Source: Solidesulfovibrio carbinoliphilus subsp. oakridgensis
GTDB taxonomy: Bacteria; Desulfobacterota; Desulfovibrionia; Desulfovibrionales; Desulfovibrionaceae
Direction of reading: 5' to 3'
NCBI RefSeq assembly: GCF_000177215.2
Contig: NZ_CM001368.1
Span: 2,927,001 to 2,991,000 of the forward strand
Length of the DNA stretch: 64,000 nt
Shown: positions 25,987 to 64,000 of the stretch, in pieces
Position numbering within the stretch: position 1 is the stretch's first letter
Layout of the letters: each line of letters opens with the position of its first letter
The notes under the pieces: model-generated
Database searches by the model: none
What the model was told of the DNA's origin: nothing
What the model saw: only the letters and a program-made list of their open reading frames with translations
Program-made: the position numbers and the translations under genes

Positions 25987-27482
25987 TCCCACCCCCTTTC
26001 TCCCCCTTCCAGGGGGTCCGGGGGGGATGATCCCCCCCGGCCGCCGGAGGCATCCCCCTTTTCTCCCTCCGCTTGCCGCAGGCAGGCATAGTCTTGCGTC
26101 TCATATCCGAGCTTGCGCATCCTCTTGGGCGCGAGGAGCGCGGCGGCGTCTTCGGGCGCGAGCATCCCCTTGGCGGCGAGGTGTTCGGCCAGGGGCCGGC
26201 CGGCGGCGTCGGCTTCGGCCAGGAGCCGGGAGACGGCCGCGTAGCCGAGGGCCGGCACGAGCACCGTGGCCAGGGCGTGGCTTTTTTCCACCAGCTCCCG
26301 GCAGCGGGCTTCGCCCGCCGTGATGCCGGCCAGGCACTTGTCCGTGAAAAGGCGCGCCGCCTGGACGAGGAGGCGCAGCGACTCCAGGAGGCTGTGGGCG
26401 AGAAGCGGCATGAACTGGTTGATCTGGAGCTGGCCGAGGCCCGCGGCCAGGGTCAGGGCCTGATGGTTGGCCATGACGCGAAGGGCCACCTGGCCCACGC
26501 ATTCCGGGATGACCGGGTTGACCTTGCCGGGCATGATGGACGACCCGGCCTGCAAGGCGGGCAGGGTGATCTCGCCGATGCCGGTGGCCGGGCCGCTGGC
26601 CAGAAGCCGCAGGTCCGAGGAGATTTTGAGCAGATTGGCGGCAAAGGCCGAGAGGATGCCCGAAACCTCGACGAACGGGTCGGCGTTGGCCGTGGCGTCG
26701 ATCAGATTTTCGGCCCGGGACACCGGCAGGCCGGTCAGGGTGCGCAGGTGTTCGGCGGCCCGGAAAATGAAATCGCGCGGCGCACCCAGGCCCGTGCCGA
26801 TGGCCGTGCCGCCAAGGGGCACCTGCTTGATCCGCTCGCGGCATTTGAAGATGCGCCACCGGTCACGTGAGAGGGCTTCGGCAAAGGCCCCGAATTCCAT
26901 GCCGAGCGTCAGGGGCACGGCGTCCATGAGCTCGGTGCGGCCGACCTTGACCACGTGGGCAAAGGCCGCCTCCTTGGTCTGGAAGGCCTCCTGGAGCCGG
27001 GCCGTTTCGGCTTCGAGGTCTTTCAAGAGCCACAGCGCGGCCACGCGAAGGGCCGTGGGAAAGGTGTCGTTGGTCGATTGGTGGAGGTTCACGTGGCCAA
27101 GCGGCGAAAGAAAGGCGTAGTCCCCGGGGGCCCGGCCCAGAAGCTCCAAGGCCCGGTTGGCCACCACCTCGTTGACGTTCATGTTGGTGGAGGTGCCGGC
27201 CCCGCCCTGGAAGGGATCGACCGGAAACTGGGCGTCGTGCCGGCCGTCGGCCACTTCCCGGCAGGCGGCCACGATGGCCTCGGCCCGCAGGGCGTCGAGG
27301 TGGCCGGTCTCCTGGTTGGCCAGGGCGCAGGCCGCCTTGACCAGGGCGAAGGCGCGGAGGAATTCCGGAAAAAGACGCTGGCCGGAGACGGGAAAATTCT
27401 CGACCGCCCGAAGCGTGTGGATGCCGTATAGGGCGCCCTCGGGGAGCGGCTTCGCTCCCAGGGCATCGCTTTCCTGTCGCAT
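25983..27482 (-). CDS. aspA: Aspartate ammonia-lyase with repeat-encoded tail
   Basis: 499 residues from the ATG at 27482 (GGGAGCAGG upstream); family length is about 470. Motifs of the fumarase/aspartase superfamily: GAGTSTNMNVNEVVANRALELLG, PLGHVNLHQSTNDTFPTALR, KVGRTELMDAVPLTLGMEFGAFAE and the signature GSSIMPGKVNPVIPE. It releases ammonia and fumarate from aspartate. It heads the operon with the unknown gene, hydE and hydF. Residues about 476-499 (GDASGGRGGSSPPDPLEGG and on) come from a dispersed palindromic repeat and run to an ATGA overlap with the next gene. Confidence 0.93.
   Translation of the reverse strand: MRQESDALGAKPLPEGALYGIHTLRAVENFPVSGQRLFPEFLRAFALVKAACALANQETGHLDALRAEAIVAACREVADGRHDAQFPVDPFQGGAGTSTNMNVNEVVANRALELLGRAPGDYAFLSPLGHVNLHQSTNDTFPTALRVAALWLLKDLEAETARLQEAFQTKEAAFAHVVKVGRTELMDAVPLTLGMEFGAFAEALSRDRWRIFKCRERIKQVPLGGTAIGTGLGAPRDFIFRAAEHLRTLTGLPVSRAENLIDATANADPFVEVSGILSAFAANLLKISSDLRLLASGPATGIGEITLPALQAGSSIMPGKVNPVIPECVGQVALRVMANHQALTLAAGLGQLQINQFMPLLAHSLLESLRLLVQAARLFTDKCLAGITAGEARCRELVEKSHALATVLVPALGYAAVSRLLAEADAAGRPLAEHLAAKGMLAPEDAAALLAPKRMRKLGYETQDYACLRQAEGEKGDASGGRGGSSPPDPLEGGERGWE
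25991..26054. repeat. G/C palindromic repeat, copy inside the aspA 3' end
   Basis: In the same orientation as aspA: GATGCCTCCGGCGGCC, G7-ATCAT-C7 palindrome, GGACCCCCTGGAAGGGGG. It encodes the extra C-terminal residues of AspA and provides the G-rich ribosome-binding region of the next gene. Confidence 0.85.
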
Positions 27483-27932
27483 GAAGCCTGCTCCCCGAAT
27501 GGCGACCCGATGCGCGCACGAGTCACCGGACCATCCGGCTCCCCGCGAACGCTGCGGCGGCATCGGTAACACGAATCGTCAGAAAGATCATTGCCTCCGG
27601 CGGCTGGGGCGCTGCCCCAGACCCCGCCGGGGCGCTGCCCCGGACCCCGCCGGAGGCGCTGCCCCGGACCCCGCCAGGGCGCCGCCCTGGACCCGCCGGG
27701 GGGAATGATTCCCCCCGGACCCCCCCGATGGTGGGGCCGGGACGGGTGCGGCGTAGGTCCGAGAGGGGGGACGGACGCCGCATCGATTCCGGCCCCACCA
27801 GCGTTTGGACGCATCGGGGGACACGAGGAGAAACAGTTCAAAGAGCGTACCCCGTCCCCCTTTCGGGGGGTCCGGGGGGGATGATCCCCCCCGGTGGGGT
27901 GGGTCTGGGAGGGGCAAAGCCCCTCCCAATTC
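27483..27932. repeat. Repeat array between hndD and aspA
   Basis: 27591-27729: four tandem units of the type GGGGCGCTGCCCCGGACCCCGCC followed by the G6-AATGATT-C6 palindrome and GGACCCCCCCGATGG. 27730-27854: unique sequence without a gene. 27855-27900: another palindrome module. 27907-27928: hairpin GGGAGGGG/CCCCTCCC directly after hndD, a likely terminator. No protein gene is supported; 27483-27590 should contain the aspA promoter. Confidence 0.75.
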
Positions 27933-51938: not shown

Positions 51939-52556
51939 TTACGGCCCCGGAAAACGCCAGGGCGGCACCGGGGCGCAGTTGACGGCGTCCACACGCCAAC
52001 AGTCGGTGTCCGGGGTCAGGATGTTCAGGTGGCAGTAGTCCTGGCCCAGGCGGAAGAGGTGGGTGAGATCCATGCCCAGGGCGTGGCAGAGGATGGCCCG
52101 GTTGACCCCGCCGTGGGCCACGACCAGGATGTTGCCCGGCATGCCGGCCAGTTCGCCGAGGGCGGCCACGGCCCGTGCCTGGACGTCGGCGAAGCTTTCG
52201 CCGCCGTCCGGGCGGAAGCCGGCCATGTCGCAGCCCCGGCGCTGGTAGGCTCCGGGAAACTGCGCGTCCACCTCCTCCCGGGTCAGGCCCTCCCAGGCCC
52301 CGAGCTTGATCTCGCGCAGCCGGGGTTCCGGCATGAGCGCGATCTTGCGGCCCTCGAGGACGAGGGCCGCGGTCTCCAGGCAGCGGGTCAGGTCGGAGAC
52401 CACGGCCAGGGTGAAGGCCACGTCGGCCAGCCCCTCCCGCCACAGCTGGGCCTGGGCCCGGCCCTCCTCGGTCAGGGGATGGTCGGCCTGGCCCACGAAC
52501 CGGCGCGGTGTGCGCTGCTCGATGGCCCCGTGGCGCAGAAGGTAAATGGTGCCCAC
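51939..52556 (-). CDS. Histidine phosphatase superfamily protein (phosphoglycerate-mutase-like)
   Basis: 205 residues. Catalytic RHG motif at the N-terminus (YLLRHGAIEQR), second arginine in SDLTRCLETA, acidic LREIKLGAWEGLTREE, and VVAHGGVNRAI for the second His. The family includes CobC (alpha-ribazole phosphatase) and many broad phosphatases. It is the last gene of the molybdenum-hydroxylase cluster, 112 bases (with a repeat copy) after the NTP transferase-HD gene, so a phosphate ester of that pathway is the plausible substrate; this is inference. Confidence 0.85.
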   Translation of the reverse strand: MGTIYLLRHGAIEQRTPRRFVGQADHPLTEEGRAQAQLWREGLADVAFTLAVVSDLTRCLETAALVLEGRKIALMPEPRLREIKLGAWEGLTREEVDAQFPGAYQRRGCDMAGFRPDGGESFADVQARAVAALGELAGMPGNILVVAHGGVNRAILCHALGMDLTHLFRLGQDYCHLNILTPDTDCWRVDAVNCAPVPPWRFPGP

Positions 52557-52617
52557 TTCGCGCCTCCCGAAAACGCGTCCTTGATGATGCCTCCAACCTA
52601 TCCTCCCCCCCTCCTCC

Positions 52618-52664
52618 CTTCAAGGGGTCCGGGGGGATTATCCCCCCGGCCGCCGGAGGCATCT
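52618..52664. repeat. G/C palindromic repeat copy
   Basis: On the minus strand GATGCCTCCGGCGGCC, G6-ATAAT-C6 palindrome, GGACCCCTTGAAGGG, directly after the stop region of the NTP transferase-HD gene. Confidence 0.85.
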
Positions 52665-52668
52665 TATC

Positions 52669-53874
52669 TTATCTTCCCCTCTCCCCCTCCCTGGCCCGCT
52701 GATAGGCTTCGGGCGGAGGCGGGCCGGGGCGGAAGCCGGCGGCGGCGATGACGGCCTCGGCCGGGGCGCCGAGGGCGGCCTCGACCCGGGCCAGGACGCG
52801 CAGCGCGTTTTGCCGGCGCCGGGCGATGGCGGCCGTGGCGTCGGGGTCGGCCGCGAACAGGTCGAGCTTTTGTTGGAACCGGGAAGCCACGGGCACGAGC
52901 CACCGGCCGAAGACGAACTTGTCGGCCAGGTAGACGATCTCGCGTTCGGTCAAGGGCGCGTCGTCGGCCAGTTCGCAGTCGCGGTGGGCGGCCACGATGG
53001 CGGCGGCCGCGTCGAAGCCGAGGCCGGAAAGCAGTTCGCCGCCGGCGGCTTCGTGGTGGGGCCGGCCCTTGGCCACGTCGTGGAGGAGGGCGGCGGCTTT
53101 TATCAGCGCGATGTCGAGTGCCGCCCCGGCGGCGTTCAGGGCCCGGCCGAGGGCCTCGGCCACGGCGGCCACGCCCCGGGCATGGGCCAGTCCCTGGGGC
53201 GGGACGCGTTCGATGGCCAGGAGCGCCTCGGCCTCGGCCGGGGTGGGGATGGACCGCCTGGGGGCCAGGGTGCGAAGGACGGCGTAGTCCTCGGGGGTGT
53301 CCATGTCGGCCAGGATGTTGGCGTCCGGCACCGGGATTTCCTCGAAGGCGAAGGGGGCCAGCGCCTGGCGCAGGCCGCCGTTGCCCCGGTGGGCCAGGAC
53401 GGCCGGCAGGAGCGAGGCGGCGAGGCACGGCGGATGGCCGCGCTGGCCGGAAAAGACCGGATAGACCAGAGGCGGGGCGCCGGCCTCGGCCAGCCGGGCC
53501 AGGAGGCGGGCGACGGTGGCCGGCCGGAACAGCGGCACATCGACCGGCGTCACGCAGACCTGGGCGCAGCCGGCCGGCACGGCGGCCAGCCCCGCCCTGA
53601 CCGAGGAAAACATGCCGGTCTCGTAGTCCGGGTTGTAGACCGCCCGGACGGCGAGGCGCACAGCCTCGGCCGCCACCTCCAGGGCCCGGTGGCCCGTGAC
53701 CACCACGATGTCGTCCAGGCCGGCCCGGCGGAAGGTGTCGACGAGAAGGCCCAGGGCCGTCCGGCCGTCCAGGGCCAGAAGCGGCTTGAACCCGGCGCCC
53801 ATGCGCGAGGACAGGCCGCCGGCCAGAATGACGGCGCAGGCCCGGAGAGGGGCGCCTGGGGACGACGGCGTCAT
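52669..53874 (-). CDS. MobA/MocA-like nucleotidyltransferase fused to an HD domain
   Basis: 401 residues from the ATG at 53874 (overlapping the xdhC stop, ATGA). Residues 12-205 are a molybdopterin nucleotidyltransferase: VILAGGLSSRMGAGFKPLLALDG, NPDYETGMFSSVRAGL, CVTPVDVPLF, GQRGHPPCL and NILADMDTPEDY, closest to MocA, which makes the cytosine dinucleotide form of the molybdenum cofactor used by aldehyde oxidoreductases of the Mop type. Residues about 215-370 form an HD phosphohydrolase domain (H231, HD at 265-266, HH at 273-274). I recall NCBI naming such proteins as DVU_1551 family NTP transferases. The role of the HD half is unknown. Confidence 0.88.
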   Translation of the reverse strand: MTPSSPGAPLRACAVILAGGLSSRMGAGFKPLLALDGRTALGLLVDTFRRAGLDDIVVVTGHRALEVAAEAVRLAVRAVYNPDYETGMFSSVRAGLAAVPAGCAQVCVTPVDVPLFRPATVARLLARLAEAGAPPLVYPVFSGQRGHPPCLAASLLPAVLAHRGNGGLRQALAPFAFEEIPVPDANILADMDTPEDYAVLRTLAPRRSIPTPAEAEALLAIERVPPQGLAHARGVAAVAEALGRALNAAGAALDIALIKAAALLHDVAKGRPHHEAAGGELLSGLGFDAAAAIVAAHRDCELADDAPLTEREIVYLADKFVFGRWLVPVASRFQQKLDLFAADPDATAAIARRRQNALRVLARVEAALGAPAEAVIAAAGFRPGPPPPEAYQRAREGERGR

Positions 53875-54914
53875 GGCCGGCCGGCGGCCCGGTGCTCGAT
53901 CAGCTCGGCCACGATGCTGACCGCGATCTCCTCGGGCGTTTCGGCCGCGATCTCGAGACCGATGGGGCTTTTGACCCGGGCCAGATCGGCGGTGGTGAAG
54001 CCGGCGGCCAGCAGCTTGTCGTAGATGGCGTCGCGCTTGGGGATGGACCCGATCATGCCGATGTACCCGGCCGGCGTGCGCAGGGCCTCGGCCAGGGCGT
54101 CGTGGTCGTGGGCGTGGCCGCGCGTGACGATGACGATGCAGGCGGCGTCCGTGATCTCCCGGCCGGCCAGCCAGCCGACGGCCGGGTCGATGACAGCCGT
54201 GTCCACGGCGAACGGGAACCGGTCGAGGTTGGCGAATTCCGGCCGGTCGTCGAGGACGGTGATCCGAAACCCGACCATGGCCGCGATCTGGCCGGTGGGG
54301 CGGCTGACGTGGCCGCCGCCGCAGAGGATGAGCGGGGTCGGGGACAGGGCCGGCTCCAGGAAATAGCGGGCCCCGGCGCAGGCGAGGACGATGGGGGCCA
54401 GAATGCCCCGGCCCTGGCGTTTGGCCGCGGCCAGGATCTCCGGGCCCGGGGAGGGGCCGACCAGGGTGCCGTCCGGCAAAAGCAGGCATCGGCCGGCGGG
54501 CGCGCCGCCGCCGTTTTCGTCCAGGCCGGTGATGAGCAGCCCCCGGCTGCCCTGGGCCAGCAGGTCGGCCAAGCGGGCGAACAGGGCCGCGGTCGCCGGC
54601 TCGGGGTCCAGGCGTTCGAGAAAGACCCGCATCCGGCCGCCGCAGATGAGGTCCGCGCCCTTGGATGCCTGTCCGGTCATGTCGAAGTCCATGAGCCGGG
54701 AGCCGCCGTTCGCCAGGACCACGGCGGCCTCGGCCATGGCCAGCCCTTCGGCCAGTCCGCCGCCCACGGTGCCGGCGATCTTGTCGCCCTCGAAGACGAG
54801 CATTTTGGAGCCGGCGGTGCGGGGGGTCGAGCCTTCGTTGGTGACGATGGTGGCCGCGACCACGGATCGGCCGGCGGCCAGGGTGTCGCGGATGGTGCGG
54901 ATGAGTTCGATCAT
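53871..54914 (-). CDS. xdhC: XdhC/CoxF-family cofactor-sulfuration protein
   Basis: 347 residues from the ATG at 54914. N-terminal XdhC domain (VVAATIVTNEGSTPRTAGSKMLVFEGDKIAGTVGGGLAEG) and C-terminal Rossmann domain (LILCGGGHVSRPTGQIAAMVGFRITVLDDRPEFANLDRFP, then IVIVTRGHAHDHDALAEAL and YIGMIGSIPKRD). Homologues bind the molybdenum cofactor, promote its sulfuration and insert it into xanthine-oxidase-family enzymes; here the client should be Mop. Start and stop overlap the neighbouring genes by four bases. Confidence 0.92.
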   Translation of the reverse strand: MIELIRTIRDTLAAGRSVVAATIVTNEGSTPRTAGSKMLVFEGDKIAGTVGGGLAEGLAMAEAAVVLANGGSRLMDFDMTGQASKGADLICGGRMRVFLERLDPEPATAALFARLADLLAQGSRGLLITGLDENGGGAPAGRCLLLPDGTLVGPSPGPEILAAAKRQGRGILAPIVLACAGARYFLEPALSPTPLILCGGGHVSRPTGQIAAMVGFRITVLDDRPEFANLDRFPFAVDTAVIDPAVGWLAGREITDAACIVIVTRGHAHDHDALAEALRTPAGYIGMIGSIPKRDAIYDKLLAAGFTTADLARVKSPIGLEIAAETPEEIAVSIVAELIEHRAAGRP

Positions 54915-55972
54915 GGTCGGGCGGCCGCTCCTTTGGCCGGATGGGTGAGGCGGGGGCCGTCCGCGGTCCGTTCGATGCGCCCGAGGATCGGCCCCAGGCG
55001 GCGAAGGCGGCTTCCGCACGGGCAGGGGCCGGAAAGCATGCGGGCGGCGTCGCCGGTCCGGTAGCGGACAAAGGGCATGGCCCGCGGGGCGAGCGTGGTG
55101 AAGACCACCTCGCCCACGTGGCCGTCCGGCAGCGGAGCCCCGGTGGCCATGTCCACCACCTCGAAATAGAGTTCGGTTTCACGCAGATGATAGCCGCAAA
55201 AGGCCTCGCACTCCACCCCGCCGCCGTAGCCCATCTCCGTGGCCCCGTAGTGGTCGAAGACGGCCGCTCCGAAGCGGGCGGCGAGCAGGTCCTTCCAGCC
55301 CCCGGGCAGGGCCTCGGCCGAGAGGAGGATGGTGCGAAGCGTGGCCCCGGCGGCGGCGCAGACGCCGGCATCGTCCACGGCCCGCCGGATCTGGGACGGC
55401 GCGGCCACCAGGACGTCCGGCCGGTGGAGGCGCAAATCCGCGGCCAGCCGGACCGGATCGCCGGTCGGGTCGCCGAGGATGCCCCGGGCCCCGAGGCGGG
55501 GAAGCGTCTGGCACAGGAGATCGCCGATGCTGTCCGGCCGGCTTCCCGGCATGAGGATAAGGACCGTGTCCCCGGGTTCGACCAAGGTCGCGATGCCGAC
55601 GTGGAAAAAGCGGCGGATGGCCTCGATGTCGGCGCCGGTAAAGGCCACGCGCTTGGGCGGACCGGTGGTGCCGGAGGTCGTGAGCGTCACCATGCGGGCC
55701 ACGTCGTCCTGGGACACGGTGAGAAACCGGGCATGGGCCTCGGTCAGGTCGGCCTGTTCGGTGAAAGGCAGGGTGGCGAAATCGGCAAGCGTCCGGGGAA
55801 AGTCCGGCGAAAGGCCGGCCAGCCGGTCGCGGTAAAAGGGGGCCGTGGCGGCATGGGCCACGGCCCGGCCAAGGGCCGCGACATGCCAGGCGGCGAGCCC
55901 TTCGGGCGTGGGCGGCGTCTCCGGCGCGCCAAGGCCCGCCGCGACGAACCCGTCCACGGGGCTCAGGCGCAT
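54911..55972 (-). CDS. PaaK-like AMP-dependent ligase of the molybdenum-hydroxylase cluster
   Basis: 353 residues, shorter than PaaK (430). The AMP-binding loop TSGTTGPPK (99-107), the adenylate motif HYGATEMGYGGGVECEAF, and RYRTGDAARML are intact. The protein ends with a short CPCGSRLRRLGPILGRI part instead of the full C-terminal domain that normally positions CoA, so it may only adenylate or may use another acceptor. I recall the NCBI name DVU_1553 family AMP-dependent CoA ligase. The acyl substrate is unknown. It overlaps trsS by ten bases and xdhC by four. Confidence 0.85.
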   Translation of the reverse strand: MRLSPVDGFVAAGLGAPETPPTPEGLAAWHVAALGRAVAHAATAPFYRDRLAGLSPDFPRTLADFATLPFTEQADLTEAHARFLTVSQDDVARMVTLTTSGTTGPPKRVAFTGADIEAIRRFFHVGIATLVEPGDTVLILMPGSRPDSIGDLLCQTLPRLGARGILGDPTGDPVRLAADLRLHRPDVLVAAPSQIRRAVDDAGVCAAAGATLRTILLSAEALPGGWKDLLAARFGAAVFDHYGATEMGYGGGVECEAFCGYHLRETELYFEVVDMATGAPLPDGHVGEVVFTTLAPRAMPFVRYRTGDAARMLSGPCPCGSRLRRLGPILGRIERTADGPRLTHPAKGAAARP

Positions 55973-57324
55973 GGCCGGCCCCGGTGGAGGGTCGTGCCGT
56001 CCGTTGCCGTCAGGTTGTAGAGGCAAAAGGGCACCAGCCGGTTGTCGGCCGTGGCCACGTGGATGCAGCAGCCGCGCGTGCGTTCGAGGTCGAGCGTCCA
56101 GGCGTCCTGGAAGGCCATGGCCGAGAGGGTGAACCGCCGGGAGGTGGCGGCGTCGGCCAGGAACCGGTCGAAGTCGTCCATGGGGCCGCCTTCTTTCGGG
56201 GGAAAGGTCGGCGCGGCCCACTGCCGGGCCACGAAACCCTTGGCCCGCCGGGCCCCTTCGTCCGCCGCGATGGGGGCCGGTGCCGGGGAGCAGCAGGACG
56301 CGGCCTGGCCCGCGGCCGGGACGAGGCCGGCCTCGCCGTCGAGCAGGTAGGGCTGGGAAAAGGAGCACAGCGAATGCTCGCAGCCCGGCGGATGGAAGTC
56401 CTCGGCCCGGATCATGCCGCCCGTCTGGGCTTCGAGGCCGCGCATGAGGTCCGGCAGGGTGACGCGTTCGCCGGCCCCGGACTCCCAGGGATAGCGGCCA
56501 AAGGAGCTGGCCGGCTGGAAATGGACGCCGCGCACGCCCGGGGCCCTGGACCGGGCCAGCCGGACGATGTCCCCGAGCTGGCCGTCGTTTACCCCGGGCA
56601 CGATGGTCGGCACCAGGACCACGCCGAGGCCGGCTGCCACGCACCGGTCGATGGCGGCGAGCTTTTCGGCCAGCAGCGGTGCCCCGCGAAGCGTTGCAAA
56701 CACGTCGTCGGTCGTGCCGTCGAACTGCAGAAAGACCGAAACCAGGCCGGCGTCGGCCAGCCGGCGAGCCAGACCCGGGTCGCGGGCCAGGGCCAGACCG
56801 TTGGTGTTGACCTGGACAAAGGCGAAGCCGGCCGCCCGGCAGGCGGCCACCACGGCCGGCAGGTCGGCCCGCACGGTGGGCTCGCCGCCGGAGAGCTGGA
56901 CATTGACCGGGCCCGTGGCCGCGAAAATCCGGGCGAACCGGTCGGCCAGGGCGCCCACCGTCGGATCGGGCGCCGGAGCCTCGCCGGAGCGGGCGAAGCA
57001 GACCGGACAGGCCAGGTTGCAGCGGCCGGTCACCTCGAAAAGGGCGGTGCAGGTCCGCTGGCCGTGCTCCGGACACAGGCCGCAGTCGTGGGGGCAGCCC
57101 AGGCGCGATTCGGTCAGGACCGGCGGCGGGGCCCCCGGCACCTTGGGCCGGTTCCAGCCGGCAATGCCGGGCGGGCCGTGCCAGAACCGGGTGCGAAATT
57201 CTCCGTGCTCCGGGCAGTCCTTGACGATGTAGCCGTCCAGGCCGTCGGTCTCGCGCCGGGCGGCCACCCGGCGCAGGCAGATCGGGCACAGGCTGGCCGT
57301 GGGGATGGGCTTTTGGGCGTTCAT
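55963..57324 (-). CDS. trsS: Radical SAM protein, TrsS type
   Basis: 453 residues. The N-terminus is cysteine-rich (CPIC, CPEHGEF, CPHDCGLCPEHGQRTC), then the radical SAM motif CNLACPVC (Cys 102, 106, 109), SGGEPT at 145-150 and later VNTNGLALA, FLQFDGTTDDVF and VPTIVPGVNDGQ, all typical of the MoaA/SPASM-like core. Cysteines follow at 315, 320 and a CC pair at 344-345. NCBI describes a radical SAM (seleno)protein family named TrsS next to the methyltransferase TrsM; here no in-frame TGA is needed, so this is the cysteine form if the assignment holds. Substrate unknown. Confidence 0.85.
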   Translation of the reverse strand: MNAQKPIPTASLCPICLRRVAARRETDGLDGYIVKDCPEHGEFRTRFWHGPPGIAGWNRPKVPGAPPPVLTESRLGCPHDCGLCPEHGQRTCTALFEVTGRCNLACPVCFARSGEAPAPDPTVGALADRFARIFAATGPVNVQLSGGEPTVRADLPAVVAACRAAGFAFVQVNTNGLALARDPGLARRLADAGLVSVFLQFDGTTDDVFATLRGAPLLAEKLAAIDRCVAAGLGVVLVPTIVPGVNDGQLGDIVRLARSRAPGVRGVHFQPASSFGRYPWESGAGERVTLPDLMRGLEAQTGGMIRAEDFHPPGCEHSLCSFSQPYLLDGEAGLVPAAGQAASCCSPAPAPIAADEGARRAKGFVARQWAAPTFPPKEGGPMDDFDRFLADAATSRRFTLSAMAFQDAWTLDLERTRGCCIHVATADNRLVPFCLYNLTATDGTTLHRGRPCA

Positions 57325-57326
57325 GG

Positions 57327-57770
57327 CTAGTCCCGGGGCTCGGACGGATCGATGCCGGCTCCGGCCAGGATGGTCAGGATCTTGTCCCAGGCCTCGGCGA
57401 GCAAGCCCCCGCACCGGGACATGTCGGGCCTGCCTTCGCCGAGAATGGCCTGGCAGCTGATGTCGCCGTAGACGGCCGTGACCCGCTCCGTGAACCACTC
57501 CACGTATTCGGTGACCAGGAGATCGGCCCGTTCGTTTTGCAGTTCCTCTTCCCGGCCCCGGCCGACGTGGAGCCCGAGAACCAGGCAGCCGCCGGTCAGG
57601 ATGCCGCAGGTCAGGCCGCAGGCGCCCATGCCGTGGCAGACGCCCGAGGCGGCGCGCACCAGCTCCCAGTTCTCGATGCCCTGGGCCCGCAGGGCCAGGA
57701 GGACCAGGATCTGGCTGCAACAGTAGTTTTTGGCGGCAAGGGGCATGATTTCGAGCAGGGTGGGGTTCAT
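57327..57770 (-). CDS. C_GCAxxG_C_C family protein
   Basis: 147 residues from the ATG at 57770 (overlapping the methyltransferase stop). Cysteines at 17, 18, 45, 51, 55, 62, 106 and 120; the family signature appears as GVCHGMGACGLTCGILTGGCLVLG, with M-G-A-C where many members have G-C-A. These proteins are thought to bind a metal or cluster through the four conserved cysteines and often accompany redox or molybdenum enzymes. I recall a NCBI family named after DVU_1555. It could shuttle electrons or sulfur in the cluster's modification. Confidence 0.85.
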   Translation of the reverse strand: MNPTLLEIMPLAAKNYCCSQILVLLALRAQGIENWELVRAASGVCHGMGACGLTCGILTGGCLVLGLHVGRGREEELQNERADLLVTEYVEWFTERVTAVYGDISCQAILGEGRPDMSRCGGLLAEAWDKILTILAGAGIDPSEPRD

Positions 57771-58471
57771 GAAGCCTCCTTGGCCGCGACGCACAGGCAG
57801 TAGCCGTAGCGCGGGCGCGGACCCGCGCCCGCGCATTCCGTTTCGCGGCCGGTGATCATCTCGATGACGCTTTTGGCCGAGCCCAGGGCAAAGGTCAGCT
57901 TGCACGCCAGTTCGGTCAGAAGCCGGGTGTGGTCCTCGAAAAAAAGGGGGGTCAGCCCGGCCTCGGCCAGCCGGGCCTCGAAAACGGGCCGGGCCACGGC
58001 CCCGGCCGCGCAGCCCCCGGCCGCAAAGGCCCCCGGCTGCGGCGCGGCGCCCTGGCGCACGTAGAGGTCGGCCAGGACCGCCCGGCCGCCGGCTTTAAGC
58101 ACCCGGGCGATCTCGGCCAGACAGCCGGCCGCGTCGCCCGAGGCCGACAGCACGCACTCGCAAAAGACCCCGTCCAGGCAGGCGTCGGCCAGGGGCAGGG
58201 CCTGGCCCGCCCCCCGGACCACCGGGCCGTGGACCCGGGCCTCCCCCGCGAACCGGACCGACGGGTCCAGGCCCACGGCGGCAAGCCCCGCCCCGGCCAG
58301 CCGGGCCAGGGTCGTTCCGGGGCCGCAGCCGAGGTCCAGCACCCGGGCCCCGGGCGCGAAGCCGCAAGCCGCCAAGCCCCGTTCGGTCAAGGCCAGTCCG
58401 CCCGGGCGCAGCGTCTCGCCGGCCACCCGGCGGAAATCCTCGCGCTCGTAGGGCGAAACGCCTTGCGGCAC
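57767..58471 (-). CDS. trsM: SAM-dependent methyltransferase, TrsM type
   Basis: 234 residues from a GTG at 58471 that overlaps the stop of the 71-residue gene (TAGTG), with GGAGG seven bases upstream. Class-I methyltransferase: VLDLGCGPGTTLARLAGAGLAAVGLDPS is motif I, DGVFCECVLS follows, and RVLKAGGRAVLADLYV is the post-motif. The C-terminal part carries several cysteines (ELACKL, ETECAG, YCLCVAAK). Named in NCBI, as I recall, DVU_1556 family methyltransferase or TrsM, always beside TrsS. The methyl acceptor is unknown. Confidence 0.87.
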   Translation of the reverse strand: MPQGVSPYEREDFRRVAGETLRPGGLALTERGLAACGFAPGARVLDLGCGPGTTLARLAGAGLAAVGLDPSVRFAGEARVHGPVVRGAGQALPLADACLDGVFCECVLSASGDAAGCLAEIARVLKAGGRAVLADLYVRQGAAPQPGAFAAGGCAAGAVARPVFEARLAEAGLTPLFFEDHTRLLTELACKLTFALGSAKSVIEMITGRETECAGAGPRPRYGYCLCVAAKEAS

Positions 58472-58686
58472 TACTTGTCCTCCAGAAGCTGCTCCACTTC
58501 GAGCATTTTGCCCGTGGCCACGTACTCGGGGAGCAAGGACATGCCGCACTTGGGGCAGGCCAGGACCGTGATGGTGAAGCCGCCGTCCAGGTAATTGACG
58601 GCCACGGGCGTGGGGGCCAGCGGTGCGTCGCAGGCCGCGCAGACCCAGTCACCCGAGGTGGGGAGGTAGACAAGCGAATCGTTCAT
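58471..58686 (-). CDS. Small four-cysteine (zinc-ribbon or rubredoxin-like) protein
   Basis: 71 residues. Two CxxC pairs, CAAC (16-19) and CPKC (44-47), in a beta-ribbon setting (WVCAACDAPL; ITVLACPKCGMSLLPEYVATGKM), enough to hold one zinc or iron. I recall the NCBI name DVU_1557 family redox protein. Its GGAGG ribosome-binding site, 11 bases before the ATG, lies inside the palindromic repeat copy at 58692-58736, and its stop overlaps the methyltransferase start. Confidence 0.85.
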   Translation of the reverse strand: MNDSLVYLPTSGDWVCAACDAPLAPTPVAVNYLDGGFTITVLACPKCGMSLLPEYVATGKMLEVEQLLEDK

Positions 58687-58691
58687 GGGTG

Positions 58692-58888
58692 GGATGCCTC
58701 CGGCGGCCGGGGGGAATAATTCCCCCCGGACCCCCTTAACGGTTACTCTTGCCGTCTTCCGGGGCCTTCCGCCCCGCGTAAATATGTGCCGCCTCCCCCC
58801 GCTGGGGAGGGTCCGGGAGGGGATCATCCCCTCCCGGCGGGGTCCGGGGCAGCGCCCCGGCCGCCGGAGGCATCTTTTCTTTTTCTTC
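58692..58888. repeat. Two palindromic repeat copies between cluster genes
   Basis: 58692-58736: inverted copy (plus strand GATGCCTCCGGCGGCC, G6-AATAATT-C6, GGACCCCC) that contributes the GGAGG used by the 71-residue gene. 58737-58795 unique. 58796-58875: palindrome GGGAGGGGATCATCCCCTCCC, a GTCCGGGGCAGCGCCCCGG unit and the GCCGCCGGAGGCATC module, just after the stop of the flavoprotein-like gene. Hairpins here could separate the two transcript parts. Confidence 0.8.
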
Positions 58889-61189
58889 CTACTTCCCCAC
58901 GCCGGCCACGGTCATGCGGTGGCTGTAGGCGGCAAACACCCGGGCCGTGCCGCCTTCCAGGGCGTATTCGACCCAGTAGGTGACCCGGTGGGGGGTGAAG
59001 CTGGCCAGGAAACGGCCGTTCTCGCGATTGAGGAATTTCCGGCCCGTGGATTCGGCGTGGGCCAGGACCCGCTTGACGTCGTCGTCCAGGATGTGGCGGG
59101 CCTCCATGACGGCCCGGACCTCGGGCGTGACCGTGAAATCCGGTCCCACCGGGGCCTTCTCGTCCACGGCCTCGTTCCAGACCGTGCGCAAAAGCTCCCG
59201 GCGAAGCCTGGCCCGGGTCTCGTGGCGCATGGAAAAGCCGGGGTCCGGCCGGGTGGCCGGATCGGCCGCGTCCCGGCCCGGGAAGAGGAGGTCGAGCAGG
59301 TGGTAGGCCCGCTTGCCGGCGTGGGAGAACCGGTCGCGGCACATGGCGCAGGTGGCCAGATAGTCCTGGCCGCTTTCGGACACGCGGCGCTTGGTGAAGG
59401 CGGCGGCCAGTTCCGGGTTGGCGTTGCCGAGCAGTCCCCCGAAGCCGCAGCATTCGGTCAGGCGGCCGGACAGGGGCAGTTCGGCGAAAGCCACGCCGCG
59501 CTTGGCCAGGATCTCGCGGATGGCGGCCTGGGTGGCGGCGTCGTGGCGCGAGGTGCAGGAATCGTGGACCGCGACGGCGGCCGGCGGGGTGAAGCCGGGG
59601 GCTTCGGGCAGCCCGGTCTCCTCGTTTAGGACCTGCCACAGGGACACGGCCGGGATGTCCGGCGCGGCCTGCCGGAAGACGGACAGGCAGGAGGCGCAGG
59701 CCGTGACCAGCCGGGGCCGGCCGAGCTTTTCCCAGTCCGCCTGGAAGGCGGCCACGGTTTCTTCGAAAAGAGCCTGCCGCCCGGCCCACAGGGCCGGGGC
59801 CCCGCAGCAGCCAAGGCCGAGGCCGACGCCGCCGGAAAGGCGTTCGCGCAAAAAGGCGTAAGCCTCGGGGATGCGGCCGTCGGGTTCGCCGCCGAGCTGG
59901 CAGCCCGGGAAAAAGAGGTGGTCGCAGGTTTCCCGGCCGGGTTCGGCCCGAAGGAGGGCGAAATCCGGGCCGTTGGAAAAGGCCATGTCCTCCAGGGCGA
60001 ACTCGTGGGCCGCTGGCGGCATCTTGCCCCGATTCACCATGTCGCGGCGCGAATCCAGGCACAGCTCGGCCATGGAGAAGTCTTCGGGGCAGACCTCGGT
60101 GCAAAGGCCGCACAGGGTGCACGAGTCGATCATCTGGTTGGCGTTGTGGTTGCCAAGGACGATGGACAGGTTGTTGTAGATCTGGCGGGCGTAGACCTTC
60201 GGATAGCCCTTGTAGTGCTTCAGGTATTCGCAGACCTTGACGCACTCCAGGCAGTCGCACTGGAGGCAGCGGCCGGCTTCGAGCCGGGCCGCGTCCGGCG
60301 TGTAGCCGGCGATCGGGTCTTGGGGGTCGATGCGCGAGGCGGGCGGCACGTCGGTCAGGTTCGTGGAGATCCGGGTGTCGGTCACGCCTTCCTTCTCGCG
60401 GCTGGCGGTGAGCGTTGCGCCGGAGAGGAAGCGGTCGATGGACACGGCGGCGCGACGGCCGTCGGCGACGAGGCCGATCATCGACCGGCTGGCGTCGTCG
60501 GCCGGCCATCCGCCGCAAAAAACGCCTGCCGGGCCGCAGGCCAGGGTCAGGGGATCGACGTCGGCGCGGGAGGGCGACAGGACGTTGTCCCGGGCGCATT
60601 CCACGTAGACGGCGTTGAAATCTTTCTGGACCGCCTCGAAAAGGGCGGCGTCCAGGGGCTGGCCGGTTTTGACGGTAACGCCCATCTGGGCGAGCACGGC
60701 CAGGGTTTCGGCCAGGACGGCCGGGGGGAGCAGGGCTTCGGGCAGTTCGGTCAGGATGCCGCCGGCCCGGTCGCGGGAGACGAACAACGTGACGGCGTAG
60801 CCCTTCTTGGCCAGGTCCCAGGCCAGGGACAGGGAGGACAGGTCGCCGCCGAGGGCGGCCACGGATTTGCCTTTGGCCGGCATGCAAAGCGGTTTGCCGC
60901 CGGAGGGGGTGGCCATGACGCAGGCCCGTTCCAGGTGCCCCATGGCGAGGGAGCCGCCGAGGTCCTGGCGGACGCAGGCCGCTTCGCAGGGGTGGTCGCA
61001 GATGCGGCCGAGCACGGCCGGCAGGGGCATGGTGCGGTCGAGGACCTTGCGCGCGCCAGGCAGGTCGCCGGTGGCCATCCTGGCCATGAATGCCCGCACA
61101 TCCACGTGGATGGGGCAGGCGGCCTGGCATTTGGGCTGTTCTTCCTGGATGCAGCGGTGCTCGATGGTCCGCAGGTCCTGTTGATTCAT
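58889..61189 (-). CDS. GltD-like/CCG-domain iron-sulfur oxidoreductase of the Mop cluster
   Basis: 766 residues from the ATG at 61189. The N-terminus is the Fe-S domain of GltD/DPYD-type proteins (CQAACPIHVD, CDHPCEAACVRQDLGG). The FAD-binding loop that should follow is degenerate (VAALGGDLSSLSLAWDLAKKG at 110-130 instead of GxGxxG) and the flavin domain is shortened. Then come CLQCDCLECVKVC, a ferredoxin pair (CTLCGLCTEVCPED) and two heterodisulfide-reductase-like CCG segments (LGCCGAPALW; ECCGFGGLLG) with CASCLSVF, CAMCRDRF and HDSCTSRHD. It is probably the electron partner of Mop or of the radical SAM protein. The position corresponds, from memory, to DVU_1558. Confidence 0.82.
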   Translation of the reverse strand: MNQQDLRTIEHRCIQEEQPKCQAACPIHVDVRAFMARMATGDLPGARKVLDRTMPLPAVLGRICDHPCEAACVRQDLGGSLAMGHLERACVMATPSGGKPLCMPAKGKSVAALGGDLSSLSLAWDLAKKGYAVTLFVSRDRAGGILTELPEALLPPAVLAETLAVLAQMGVTVKTGQPLDAALFEAVQKDFNAVYVECARDNVLSPSRADVDPLTLACGPAGVFCGGWPADDASRSMIGLVADGRRAAVSIDRFLSGATLTASREKEGVTDTRISTNLTDVPPASRIDPQDPIAGYTPDAARLEAGRCLQCDCLECVKVCEYLKHYKGYPKVYARQIYNNLSIVLGNHNANQMIDSCTLCGLCTEVCPEDFSMAELCLDSRRDMVNRGKMPPAAHEFALEDMAFSNGPDFALLRAEPGRETCDHLFFPGCQLGGEPDGRIPEAYAFLRERLSGGVGLGLGCCGAPALWAGRQALFEETVAAFQADWEKLGRPRLVTACASCLSVFRQAAPDIPAVSLWQVLNEETGLPEAPGFTPPAAVAVHDSCTSRHDAATQAAIREILAKRGVAFAELPLSGRLTECCGFGGLLGNANPELAAAFTKRRVSESGQDYLATCAMCRDRFSHAGKRAYHLLDLLFPGRDAADPATRPDPGFSMRHETRARLRRELLRTVWNEAVDEKAPVGPDFTVTPEVRAVMEARHILDDDVKRVLAHAESTGRKFLNRENGRFLASFTPHRVTYWVEYALEGGTARVFAAYSHRMTVAGVGK

Positions 61190-61207
61190 GGGAACCTTCC
61201 GGAGGAA

Positions 61208-61246
61208 ACGACGGGGCGAACACGTCATGCGTTCGCCCCGCCGTCC
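61208..61246. terminator. Intercistronic hairpin after mop
   Basis: ACGGGGCGAAC and GTTCGCCCCGCCGT (one bulged base) form a strong stem between mop and the following gene. There is no T-run on the minus strand, so partial termination or 3' protection of the mop message, giving more Mop than accessory proteins, is likelier than full termination. Confidence 0.5.
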
Positions 61247-61274
61247 GTTTGCGCTGGTCTAAGACCGATGGGGG

Positions 61275-64000
61275 CTATTTGCCAAGGGCTTTGAGGCCGG
61301 CAAGCACCTTCTCGGGGTAGGCCGGCAGATGGCGGATGCGCACGCCGCAGGCGTTGTAGATGGCGTTGATGATGGCCGGGTGCGGGCCGCACAAGGGCAC
61401 TTCACCGACGCCCGAGTTGCCGTAGGGGCCGTGCTCGCGCGGGGATTCCACGTAGTGGAGCTCCATGGCGTCCGGGATGTCCTTGATGTAGGGCACGCCG
61501 GCGCCGGCCAACGAGGAGTGCTTCTTGATGTCCTCGAAGTCCTCGGACAGGGCCAGGCCCACGCCCTGGGCCAAGCCGCCCCAGTTCTGGCCGTCGACGG
61601 TCTGGCGGTTGTTGATCGTGCCGATGTCCTCGACCAGGGTCATCTTGTCGACCTGGGTCTTGCCGGTGGCCAGCTCGACGGTGACCTCGGCCAGGAACAG
61701 GCCGTACATGTAGCAGCAGAACGGGGACCCGAGGCCGTTGGCGTCGCAGTCCTTGGCCGGGGCGGTCCAGGTGCCGTTGTAGCGGGTCTTGAGGCCTTCG
61801 GCGACCATCTCGTCGTAGGTCCGGAAGGTGCCGTCGGACTTGCGCATGGCATCGACGAGCTGCTTGCAGCCGTTGATGATGGCCTGGCCGACCATGACGT
61901 TGGAGCGGGAGCCGCCGGCCGGGCCGGAGTTCGGGCACTTGCCCGTGTCATTTAAGACCAGCTTGATCTTGGAAGCGCACAGGCCGAGCGGCTTCAGGGT
62001 CTCGTGGGCAAAGCCCAGGGTGCCGGCGTCGGAACCCTGGCCGTGGTCCTGCCAGGTGTTGTAGATGGTGACGCTGCCGTCGGCGTTGAGCTCGGCGTCG
62101 GCGCCGGCGGAGTCGGGGCCGTCAAGGCCGGAGCCGTAGATGCCGATGGCCACGCCCACGCCCTTTTTATGGGTGGCGGTGGAGTTCTTTTTGGCGTTGG
62201 CCAGGGCTTCCTTGTACTTGGGCCGCAGGATGTCGATCATCTCGGGCAGGGTCCAGGAATCGGGCACCTGGTCGGTCGGGGTGGTGTCGCCCGGGCGGTA
62301 CACGTTCGCATACCGGAATTCCAGGGGATCCATGCCGAGCTTTTCGGCCATCTCGTCCATCAGGCACTCGGAGGGGAACATGATCTCCGGCGAACCGTAG
62401 CCGCGGAAGGCCGAACCCCAGCCGTGGTTGGTGGCCACGCAGTAGCCCTTGGCGCGCATGTTCGGGATGCCGTAGCCGGCCATCCAGTACTGGGAGCCGC
62501 GAAGCGTCAGGAGGTCGCCGAACTCGGAATAGGGGCCGTGGTCCACGATCCACTCCATCTCGGAAGCCACGATCTTCTTGGTGGCCTTGTCGACGGCGAT
62601 CTTGCCCTTGGTCCAGAACGGGGAGCGCTTGCCGGTGTAGTACTGCTGCTGGGCGTAGTTGTAGTGCAGGTGGCAGGGGCGGCCGGTGGCCATGGCCGCG
62701 ACGCCGACCAGGGCTTCCATGGTCGGGCTGAACTTGTAGCCGAAGGTGCCGCCGGTGGGGAGCTGGATCAGGATCAGGTTCTCCGGCTCGACGCCGAGGC
62801 CCGGGGCGATCATGTACAGGTGCAGGTACAGGCCGATGGACTTGGAGTGGATGACGACCTTGCCTTCCTCGTTCAAGTAGGCAAAGCCGACGTCCGGCTC
62901 GATGGGCAGGTGCGGCTGGCGCTGGGTGTAGTAGTCGCCGCCCATGACTTCGTACTTGGCGTCATTGAAGAAGGGGGCCACGTCGGCGCCCTTGGCGTGG
63001 TTCTGCTCGTAGTAGGTGTTGGGCGTGCCGGGGTGGATCTCGATGGCGTCTTCGGCCATGGCCGCCGGGGCGCTCATGTAGGCCGGCAGGACTTCCAGGT
63101 CGACCTTCACCTTTTCGGCGGCGGCGCGGGCGTTCTTCTCGGAGTCGGCCGCGACGAGCGCGATGGCGTCGCCGTACTGGAACACCTTGTCGTCGCAAAG
63201 GATGGGGCGATCCCAGCCGTCACCCTTGTTGGTGGGGAAGGTGATAAGCCCGGTGATGCGGTTTTTGCCCTTCACGTCCTTGGCCGTGATGACGCTGTGC
63301 ACGCCCGGCATCTTGAGGGCTTCGGTGGCGTCCACGCCCTTGACGTTGGCGTGGGACACCCGGGCCTCGACAATGGCCAGGTGCAGGGTGTTGGGCGGCA
63401 GCTGGAGCTTCTGGTCGTCGCCAAAGGCCCATTGGCCCATGACCTTGGCCACGCCCGAGGGGCGCGGGGCGCGCGAACCGAAGATGTTCCCGTCGGCCGG
63501 CATGTTGTGGTTGATGTCGAGGGTCATTTCGCCGCGCAGGACCTTGGCCGCGTCCATGACCGCGTCGACCAGCGGGATGTAGCCGGTGCAACGGCACACG
63601 TTTTTGTGCTTCTGGAACCAGTCGCGGACCTGCTCGCGGGTGGGCTTGGGATTCTCGTCCAGAAGGCCCTTGGCGGACATGATGAAGCCCGGGGTGCAAA
63701 AGCCGCACTGGGCCGCGCCGTGGACGACCCAGGCGGTCTGGAGCGGGTGCAGGTTGGCCTGGTTGCCAAGACCTTCGATGGTGGTGATGCAGGCGTAGTC
63801 GGCCACGCGGCGGATCTTGGTGATGCAGGCGCGGGTGACCTTGCCGTCGATGATGACCGAGCAGGCGCCGCACTGGCCCTGGCCGCAGCCGACCTTGGTG
63901 CCGACCAGGTGCAGTTGCTCGCGCAGCACGTCGGACAGGAACGCATCCGGGTCGACGATGAGCTTGCGCTCGAAGCCGTTAACGATGAGGATTTTTTCCT
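61275..64000 (-). CDS. mop: Molybdenum aldehyde oxidoreductase (Mop), 5' end just outside
   Basis: The frame is open to the right edge; the residues before the first internal ATG (KILIVNGFERKLIVDPDAFLSDV) match the start of D. gigas Mop, so only a few codons are missing and the total should be near 910. First [2Fe-2S]: GCGQGQCGACSVI; second: AQCGFCTPGF and CRCTG. The molybdenum domains follow (GGTFGYKFSPTMEALVG; GWGSAFRGYGSPE; TWQDHGQGSDAG; GGSRSNVM), with GVGEVPLCGPH carrying the expected catalytic glutamate. The enzyme oxidises aldehydes to acids with a molybdopterin cytosine dinucleotide cofactor, passing electrons to flavodoxin or ferredoxin. First gene seen of the cluster that extends to 51939. 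Confidence 0.96.
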   Translation of the reverse strand, partial: EKILIVNGFERKLIVDPDAFLSDVLREQLHLVGTKVGCGQGQCGACSVIIDGKVTRACITKIRRVADYACITTIEGLGNQANLHPLQTAWVVHGAAQCGFCTPGFIMSAKGLLDENPKPTREQVRDWFQKHKNVCRCTGYIPLVDAVMDAAKVLRGEMTLDINHNMPADGNIFGSRAPRPSGVAKVMGQWAFGDDQKLQLPPNTLHLAIVEARVSHANVKGVDATEALKMPGVHSVITAKDVKGKNRITGLITFPTNKGDGWDRPILCDDKVFQYGDAIALVAADSEKNARAAAEKVKVDLEVLPAYMSAPAAMAEDAIEIHPGTPNTYYEQNHAKGADVAPFFNDAKYEVMGGDYYTQRQPHLPIEPDVGFAYLNEEGKVVIHSKSIGLYLHLYMIAPGLGVEPENLILIQLPTGGTFGYKFSPTMEALVGVAAMATGRPCHLHYNYAQQQYYTGKRSPFWTKGKIAVDKATKKIVASEMEWIVDHGPYSEFGDLLTLRGSQYWMAGYGIPNMRAKGYCVATNHGWGSAFRGYGSPEIMFPSECLMDEMAEKLGMDPLEFRYANVYRPGDTTPTDQVPDSWTLPEMIDILRPKYKEALANAKKNSTATHKKGVGVAIGIYGSGLDGPDSAGADAELNADGSVTIYNTWQDHGQGSDAGTLGFAHETLKPLGLCASKIKLVLNDTGKCPNSGPAGGSRSNVMVGQAIINGCKQLVDAMRKSDGTFRTYDEMVAEGLKTRYNGTWTAPAKDCDANGLGSPFCCYMYGLFLAEVTVELATGKTQVDKMTLVEDIGTINNRQTVDGQNWGGLAQGVGLALSEDFEDIKKHSSLAGAGVPYIKDIPDAMELHYVESPREHGPYGNSGVGEVPLCGPHPAIINAIYNACGVRIRHLPAYPEKVLAGLKALGK

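Follow-up and report, generated by a model that had tools for sequence, protein, structure and literature searches.

The final part of a 64,000-nucleotide stretch of the Solidesulfovibrio carbinoliphilus subsp. oakridgensis chromosome (contig NZ_CM001368.1, positions 2,927,001 to 2,991,000; hereafter the window) carries, on the minus strand from 51939 to past 64000, ten consecutive open reading frames (ORFs) in the ORF list of the 64-kb window. They encode a molybdopterin-dependent aldehyde oxidoreductase (Mop), a GltD-like/dicluster/CCG protein (GltD/CCG), a 71-residue four-cysteine protein (Cys4), an S-adenosylmethionine (SAM)-dependent methyltransferase (TrsM), a C_GCAxxG_C_C family putative redox protein (CGC), a radical SAM enzyme (TrsS), a PaaK-like adenylate-forming ligase, an XdhC-family maturation factor, a MocA-like nucleoside triphosphate (NTP) transferase and a histidine phosphatase. 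Our tentative proposal, which we consider plausible rather than probable, is that TrsS, TrsM and the ligase (the Trs set) form a shared trans-acting set that works on or through the C-terminal tail of Cys4 and serves the electron-transfer side of Mop. The proposal draws on observations of gene content, gene order, co-occurrence, the ligand residues of TrsS, the invariance of the Cys4 tail and the presence of extra Mop-GltD/CCG-Cys4 triplets.

The Desulfovibrio aldehyde oxidoreductase is a long-studied molybdenum enzyme and is usually accompanied by this same unexplained set of helper genes. The NCBIfam model names state no function for the Trs set, and we recognized no functional study of it in our literature search, which is not proof of absence, as Haft and Tolstoy 2025 exists. 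The Cys4 tail, the extra triplets, the Mop-less clade and the Desulfovibrio gigas argument described below come from the present analysis. Loci are numbered with L and genomes with G.

Cys4 has an invariant C-terminal tail

Cys4 in the window contains two cysteine pairs and ends ...EVEQLLEDK. Over all loci 104 copies were collected, a number that includes repeats (L042 and L119 are one contig from two collections); the count of 45 among the 80 named loci surveyed below is too low owing to the gene-calling rule. Eighty-five copies end in Leu-Glu-Asp-Lys (LEDK) and 99 in Lys, and in the other five, all from loci without Mop, the Lys stands third from the end. At a 75% identity cut, the 93 Mop-side copies were reduced to 68 non-redundant copies with a mean identity of 47%. 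Tyr32, Glu65, Glu69 and the final Lys71 (window numbering) were present in 68 of 68, Leu68 in 65 of 68 and Asp70 in 63 of 68, and the four cysteines were each found in 67 or 68 of the 68. Across the nine other cluster families, the best conserved of the last four positions was the final Lys of Mop (40/78).

A Shine-Dalgarno origin of the tail was considered and rejected. LEDK is encoded by 29 codon combinations, and it persists where a different gene follows or where 74 to 356 bases separate Cys4 from its downstream neighbor (L183, L184, L181 and L180); therefore, the tail is not a ribosome-binding site.

TrsS carries the metal-site residues of tetraether lipid synthase

The nearest solved structure to TrsS was the tetraether synthase GDGT-MAS (4.6e-79). 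An AlphaFold2 model of TrsS, with a mean predicted local distance difference test (pLDDT) score of 90.9, gave 7tom and 7tol as its best matches (template modeling score of 0.76; E value of about 1e-40), far ahead of MoaA. In 59 aligned TrsS sequences, C13x2C16x20C37x2H40, C77/C81/C84/H87, C102/C106/C109, C320, M403, C419 and C434 were invariant, and counting residues places M403 opposite the labile Met439 of the synthase. With ligands taken from the accessible part of PMC9433317, the residues of the rubredoxin site, of the two auxiliary [4Fe-4S] sites and the labile Met are all present in TrsS. Judged by these residues, TrsS is predicted to have the metal-site architecture of tetraether lipid synthase.

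The accessible text of PMC9433317 describes an intermediate of the tetraether synthase with a carbon-sulfur bond to the C-terminal cluster, a sulfur-bearing lipid formed when SAM is limiting and an M439A variant that is still active, and there the bacterial homologues of the synthase are left open. Pterin methylation by TrsS, considered on account of a zinc-ribbon Pfam name and the pterin methylase MJ0619, was dropped; in the same text that assignment is described as not corroborated. The accessible part of PMC13188914 lists TrsS as a radical SAM selenoprotein family, referring to Haft and Tolstoy 2025. The window TrsS has a Cys at position 315, and TrsS of L132 (9893 onward) has an in-frame TGA at the same position (PPG*EEAHCSF), a possible selenocysteine. 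The split TrsS of L067 was rejected as a selenoprotein, its two parts being in different frames.

Extra Mop-GltD/CCG-Cys4 triplets lie away from the Trs set

The GltD/CCG protein has two HdrB/D-type cysteine-rich motifs and a tail domain of about 90 residues, and two heterodisulfide-reductase-type CCG motifs were found in 85 of 85 full-length GltD/CCG proteins. Extra triplets of Mop, GltD/CCG and Cys4, with LEDK tails, were present in L180, L181, L183 and L184, where TrsM, TrsS, CGC and the ligase are absent from the fetched stretch. At L187, the triplet is joined by XdhC and the NTP transferase and TrsS is on another contig; L186 ends too early to tell. The numbers of Mop, Cys4 and TrsS copies are 3/3/1 in G539, 2/2/1 in G523 and 2/2/2 in G525. 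This is the pattern of one trans-acting set with several dedicated small partners, TrsS being the member of the set whose copies were counted genome-wide. The L181 triplet is near a glycyl radical enzyme, and that of L183 directly follows an iron alcohol dehydrogenase. The second Mop copy of G256 (L192:5886-8838) is broken into two frames.

Mop and TrsS co-occur across genomes

We surveyed the neighborhoods of 33 TrsS stretches from the window's phylum (L035-L067) and of 80 named loci; seven more stretches (L068-L074) held weaker TrsS/Tes-like genes only. The order Mop, GltD/CCG, Cys4, TrsM, CGC, TrsS, ligase, XdhC, NTP transferase, phosphatase is seen again, locally rearranged or with genes lost, in Desulfovibrio and further deltaproteobacteria, Acetobacterium, Clostridium, Chloroflexi, Acidobacteria, Pleomorphomonas, Spirochaetia and others, as identified by record titles. 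Mop was present in 58 of the 80 named loci, the ligase in 67 and TrsM in 65. Genes of a MoCF-type sequence cluster (one member scanned) were found in 22 named loci and in most of these precede Mop. In two Sporomusa loci (L085:8510-9956 and L095:8520-9951), TrsS is directly preceded by a pair of genes, one cysteine-desulfurase-like (scanned in L085) and one of about 105 residues without a family match. L072:7489-12084 holds radical SAM genes of the TrsS/Tes-like kind in tandem; their branches are very long, and they have no Trs partners.

Genomes were drawn from the window's phylum (297) and from the order to which G489 belongs (67); G489 holds L130 and bears the title Eubacteriaceae bacterium. 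In the phylum draw, TrsS scored over its cut-off in 33 genomes, Mop in 26 and both in 25; in the second order, the counts were 21, 20 and 18. All genomes with Mop also had Cys4 (26/26 and 20/20, 46/46 together). Mop and TrsS are clearly apart in G534 (22 kb, one contig) and in genomes such as G296 and G569 (different contigs). An earlier note on the window, made from its sequence, had held that the Trs branch goes with Mop and had proposed a gene-neighborhood search as the check; the association stood up, with a similar order in many lineages and TrsS nearly always present in Mop genomes, even on separate contigs or far apart.

Mop over the cut-off was found without TrsS over the cut-off in 1 of 26 genomes of the phylum draw and 2 of 20 of the second order. 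The phylum exception (G241) has Mop only as contig-edge pieces and has Cys4, and one of the second-order exceptions (G520) has a TrsS match of 469.8 bits against a cut-off of 490; the other, G507, is weighed below. TrsS without Mop over the cut-off occurred in eight genomes of the phylum draw, of which G075, G108, G125, G131, G152 and G212 belong to the Mop-less clade; contig ends interrupt Mop in G104, and G253 lacks a Mop over the cut-off. In the second order the genomes were G522 (Mop in pieces), G530 and G565.

Among the named loci, 22 lacked Mop, and for 19 of them (all except L097, L119 and L132) the genome was searched for it. Seventeen genomes had Mop-side TrsS loci without a local Mop, and 11 of these had Mop over the cut-off elsewhere. 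As to the rest, G495 reached 1099.7 bits (cut-off, 1100), G485 and G494 held strong Mop fragments, and no Mop over the cut-off was present in G486, whose best match had 393 bits, in G490, whose best had 803, or in G492, which gave no match at E 1e-50. The two genomes beyond these 17, G501 and G502 (loci L120 and L127), are members of the Mop-less clade. A contig end cuts the TrsS locus in several of the 11 genomes, so linkage of Mop and TrsS is not readable there.

One TrsS clade has the Trs core without Mop

The TrsS tree contained 121 rows and was built by a quick method with Shimodaira-Hasegawa-like approximate likelihood ratio test (SH-aLRT) support only. TrsS pieces of less than 330 residues were excluded, as were, for the named loci, those of less than 400 residues or 350 bits. 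L154 and L132, in which TrsS is incomplete or split, are not in the tree and were assigned by hand to the Mop-less side for the Cys4 counts. One group (SH-aLRT 97) consists of nine Trs-core loci without Mop (L049, L050, L051, L054, L058, L064, L067, L120 and L127). Most loci of this clade lack the GltD half, and separate genes encode the CCG part and the tail of about 90 residues; L127 has a long GltD/CCG gene, and L067 has the tail piece only. XdhC, the NTP transferase and the phosphatase were not found in the stretches of the clade. Scans identified a BadF-type activase in L049, L051 and L120 and double-cubane-type reductases in L049 and in L154, a Mop-less copy outside the tree; genes of L051 and L120 cluster with these reductases. 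A scan identified RACo in L058, and a gene in L064 clusters with it.

The Trs core is thus a single unit with two settings: one clade pairs it with Mop, and the second with something other than Mop. We rejected a general independence of the Trs core from Mop, since the nine tree loci form one clade and most other genomes hold Mop elsewhere. Frequent occurrence of TrsS, TrsM and the ligase without Mop, which the earlier note would have counted against its own proposal, is seen in this one separate clade of nine rows.

Structures of D. gigas Mop argue against a modification of Mop

A genome in the window's family, G311, encodes a Mop fragment that is 100% identical over 206 residues to the solved D. 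gigas protein (the 1sij/1vlb group). Beside it lie genes for GltD/CCG, Cys4, TrsM, CGC, TrsS, the ligase, XdhC and the phosphatase; the NTP transferase was not found in the G311 stretch. D. gigas Mop structures have been reported at 1.28 Å (1VLB) and, in four further data sets, at 1.50 to 1.75 Å; these four comprise 907 residues with none missing, from protein purified from D. gigas, and the accessible parts of the papers describe only pyranopterin cytosine dinucleotide and two [2Fe-2S] clusters (PMC3877041, PMC10223205). A stable group added to Mop or its cofactor should have shown in these structures, and modification of Mop itself by the Trs set is therefore unlikely. The earlier note had proposed a modification on or for Mop, with an acylated, methylated cofactor or peptide as an example. 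Placing it on Mop or its cofactor does not agree with D. gigas, which has the Trs core, yet whose Mop is described with the ordinary cofactor only; Cys4 or a partner molecule is for that reason the better target. According to the accessible text of PMC3877041, D. gigas Mop takes a broad range of aldehydes, and the external electron acceptor of the Desulfovibrio aldehyde oxidoreductase is only proposed (flavodoxin).

The ligase is shortened in the window's branch

Among 102 ligases, 19 run on for only 17 to 43 residues past the end of the model (19 residues in the window ligase), all of them in the window's branch of the TrsS tree. A Lys-Gly pair is kept in the shortened stub in 19 of 19 (window 54911-54970). 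Another 81 of the 102 extend 60-140 residues more, and 78 of these 81 have a Lys-Arg pair in the last 40. The N-terminal adenylation domain is present (PF00501, 67.6 bits over 29.9). The ligase is not a PaaK equivalog (TIGR02155, 113.6 versus 646.3 bits), and the C-terminal domain is lacking in the window copy. The earlier note had described a ligase without much of its C-terminal domain, which is correct for the window and is a trait of its branch (19/102). The truncation is thus a lineage trait, and the CoA-transfer half of the ligase reaction may be dispensable.

Layout and family assignment of the cluster

The coordinates and assignments of the ten genes are given in Table 1. The ten-gene minus-strand cluster of the earlier note is confirmed as ten ORFs in a row, and nine of the ten passed a curated NCBIfam cut-off. 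The exception, the histidine phosphatase, was below every NCBIfam cut-off, the nearest being ribazole phosphatase TIGR03162 (152.5 versus 162.9 bits). Mop is not a selenium-dependent xanthine dehydrogenase (TIGR03311, 424.6 bits; cut-off, 830.45).

Table 1. Genes of the Mop-Trs cluster, in window coordinates
Feature	Position	Strand	Family evidence
Mop, molybdopterin-dependent aldehyde oxidoreductase	61275..64000	-	NF045668, 1609.6 bits, cut-off 1100; PDB 1dgj, 1sij/1vlb
GltD-like/dicluster/CCG protein	58889..61228	-	NF045663, 1040 bits, cut-off 530; Fer4_20, Fer4_17, CCG
Cys4 small protein (71 residues), DVU_1557 family	58471..58686	-	NF045645/DUF7479, 91.8 bits, cut-off 60
TrsM, SAM-dependent methyltransferase	57767..58471	-	NF045667, 216 bits, cut-off 155
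CGC, C_GCAxxG_C_C family putative redox protein	57327..57770	-	NF045669, 168 bits, cut-off 103; PF09719
TrsS, radical SAM enzyme	55963..57324	-	NF045646, 623.3 bits, cut-off 490
PaaK-like adenylate-forming ligase	54911..55972	-	NF045666, 401 bits, cut-off 300
XdhC-family aldehyde oxidoreductase maturation factor	53871..54914	-	NF045664, 379 bits, cut-off 350
MocA-like NTP transferase fused to HD domain	52669..53874	-	NF045665, 440 bits, cut-off 315; Pfam NTP_transf_3 + HD
Histidine phosphatase, alpha-ribazole-phosphatase-like	51939..52556	-	Pfam PF00300 passed

In the organism's own genome, the Mop ATG lies beyond the window end, at window-equivalent position 64004, and an eleventh gene, for a PF00994 MoCF-type protein, lies upstream of Mop at window-equivalent 64139-65257. 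Overlaps had been claimed at most junctions. Five of the nine junctions do overlap (Cys4/TrsM by 1 base, TrsM/CGC by 4, TrsS/ligase by 10, ligase/XdhC by 4 and XdhC/NTP transferase by 4), and the other four are gaps (Mop/GltD-CCG, 46; GltD-CCG/Cys4, 202; CGC/TrsS, 2; NTP transferase/phosphatase, 112). The HD domain, listed in that account as a separate item, is present as a fusion to the NTP transferase. The D. vulgaris gene set DVU_1551-1559 that it had named agrees with the NCBIfam models of cluster families, which are named after DVU_1551, 1553, 1555, 1556 and 1557, and with DVU_1559 as the aldehyde oxidoreductase; tables in two D. vulgaris papers list DVU_1559. Overall, the interpretation given in the earlier note is partly supported.

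Both larger gaps of the cluster (52557-52668 and 58687-58888) contain a dispersed GC-rich, partly palindromic repeat, GATGCCTCCGGCGGCCGGGG..., with two inverted copies in the 202-base gap (58687-58888) and further copies near 4050, 8810, 19220-19410, 26011-26056 and 27592-27894. Just outside the window, genes for a sigma-54-type response regulator and a histidine kinase (L155:3539-6308) lie upstream of the one for the MoCF-type protein, and a sigma-54 activator (one scanned) directly follows the phosphatase in seven named loci.

Discussion

We picture the cluster as two modules. One would comprise Mop and its cofactor set, namely, the MoCF-type protein, XdhC, the NTP transferase/HD protein and probably the phosphatase; the other would be the Trs set, with Mop not among its substrates. 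Mop, GltD/CCG and Cys4 would form the working aldehyde-oxidizing unit, in which Mop draws electrons from aldehydes and GltD/CCG, with its GltD-like part, dicluster ferredoxin part and two HdrB/D-type sites, is the putative electron-transfer partner. A maturation set of TrsS, TrsM and the ligase, in most cases with CGC as well, would act in trans, most likely on Cys4, at or via its invariant tail E-x-x-L-E-D-K-COOH.

The substrate, step order, product, attachment and electron route that we infer for the Trs set are as follows. The ligase would adenylate a carboxylate, either that of an acyl group or that of the Cys4 tail. TrsS would take a hydrogen from an sp3 carbon, and the resulting carbon radical would be captured by the C-terminal auxiliary [4Fe-4S] cluster of the enzyme, as in tetraether lipid synthase, leading to a C-S or C-C bond, and methylation by TrsM would be the last step. 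The finished thiol- or thioether-type group would link Mop with the CCG sites as a carrier of electrons or acyl groups; the two heterodisulfide-reductase-type motifs of the CCG protein fit a thiol-type group placed between Mop and its acceptor. We regard as rather doubtful the bolder version in which Cys4 is a ribosomal carrier or scaffold whose Leu-Glu-Asp-Lys end is the site where the shared Trs set assembles a new prosthetic group of the thiol or thioether type, with that group as the missing electron acceptor arm of the Desulfovibrio aldehyde oxidoreductase, read by the heterodisulfide-reductase-like partner and serving, in the second clade, ATP-driven double-cubane reductases. Should the Cys4 tail prove to be the target, the outcome would be a protein-bound redox group of a new kind, for which substrate, enzyme set and readout (the intact mass of a 71-residue protein) are all defined, and a bacterial branch of the tetraether synthase family would gain its first function.

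Several observations weigh against the proposal that the Trs set works on or through the Cys4 tail. Second Mop copies in L188, L189, L192 (broken), L195 and L196 have no GltD/CCG and Cys4, so Cys4 is not needed beside every Mop, and in most Mop-less loci the Cys4 tail is not LEDK. Cys4 looks like a folded domain, and its conserved tail may be a docking site only. Confidence in its predicted model is modest (pLDDT of 72 on average, and of 57 and 52 in the final two blocks), and a Foldseek search with it returned 81 matches, none with an E value up to 0.001. No peptidase or known carrier-loading enzyme is among the ten genes (unlinked peptidases were not searched). The Fisher P values for co-occurrence of Mop and TrsS (2e-28 in the phylum draw and 2e-11 in the second order) ignore kinship. 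In G507, Mop, Cys4, TrsM and CGC are present with no TrsS match, and because the contig runs on past them the absence of TrsS is possibly a real loss. Lastly, the accessible main text of a D. vulgaris fitness paper does not name the DVU155x genes and discusses the tungsten-type enzyme DVU1179 instead.

The strongest rival is that the Trs set makes a small molecule that stays free, a redox carrier of thiol-like or lipid-like nature, for use by Mop and GltD/CCG, with the Cys4 tail as a docking site only. The closeness of TrsS to a lipid-coupling enzyme, the heterodisulfide-reductase kind of the CCG motifs and the presence of the same core in another redox setting in the Mop-less clade (BadF-type activase with double-cubane reductases, or RACo, in several loci) all point this way. 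However, the ten genes include no transporter or lipid gene (recurring flanking genes being annotated only in part), and by itself a free molecule does not account for the invariance of the final Cys4 Lys and its constant place at the very end on the Mop side; we judge it somewhat unlikely. That the Trs enzymes instead modify Mop itself or the molybdopterin cofactor would explain their co-occurrence and linkage with Mop, but the D. gigas structures, from an organism with the Trs core, are described with only ordinary pyranopterin cytosine dinucleotide and two [2Fe-2S] clusters, and a Mop-less clade has the same core, which makes this improbable.

Still less probable, in our view, is that Mop is a step of a Trs biosynthetic pathway, oxidizing an aldehyde intermediate, so that the cluster is one pathway. 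The recurring order and co-occurrence would suit such a pathway, and the ligase could activate the acid made by Mop; against it stand divergent Mop copies that lie away from TrsS, each beside a GltD/CCG and a Cys4 gene of its own, in possible aldehyde-making settings (L181 and L183), and the broad aldehyde range of D. gigas Mop (PMC3877041, accessible text). Finally, the genes might be neighbors through shared regulation or transfer only, with separate functions, as the Trs core without Mop in one clade and the dispersed repeats in two gaps of the window cluster would allow. Since a similar order is found in many lineages and co-occurrence is kept when the genes lie apart, we consider this highly improbable.

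Comparison with known systems

In mycofactocin-like peptide-derived cofactor systems, a small protein with a conserved C-terminus that is worked on lies beside a radical SAM enzyme and is served by a freeing peptidase. Cys4 resembles such systems in being a small protein with an invariant C-terminus adjoining a radical SAM enzyme, and differs in being a four-cysteine domain whose ten-gene cluster has a ligase and a methyltransferase instead of a peptidase. The D. gigas aldehyde oxidoreductase belongs to the same Mop family as the window protein and has the Trs core in the same order; in contrast, the accessible literature treats that enzyme alone, proposes flavodoxin as its acceptor and leaves the neighboring genes unmentioned. 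TrsS is not a Tes by the curated model (300.1 bits versus the NF045702 cut-off of 450). The position of Tyr459 is Val in 42 of 59 TrsS sequences, and the stretch between the two aligned parts, which holds Cys315, Cys320 and Cys344, is shorter in TrsS (84 versus 122 residues). In other respects TrsS is like Tes/GDGT-MAS: it shares the rubredoxin-like Cys3His site C-x2-C-x20-C-x2-H with identical spacing, the residues of the N-terminal auxiliary cluster with their His, the radical SAM motif and the Met of the C-terminal auxiliary cluster.

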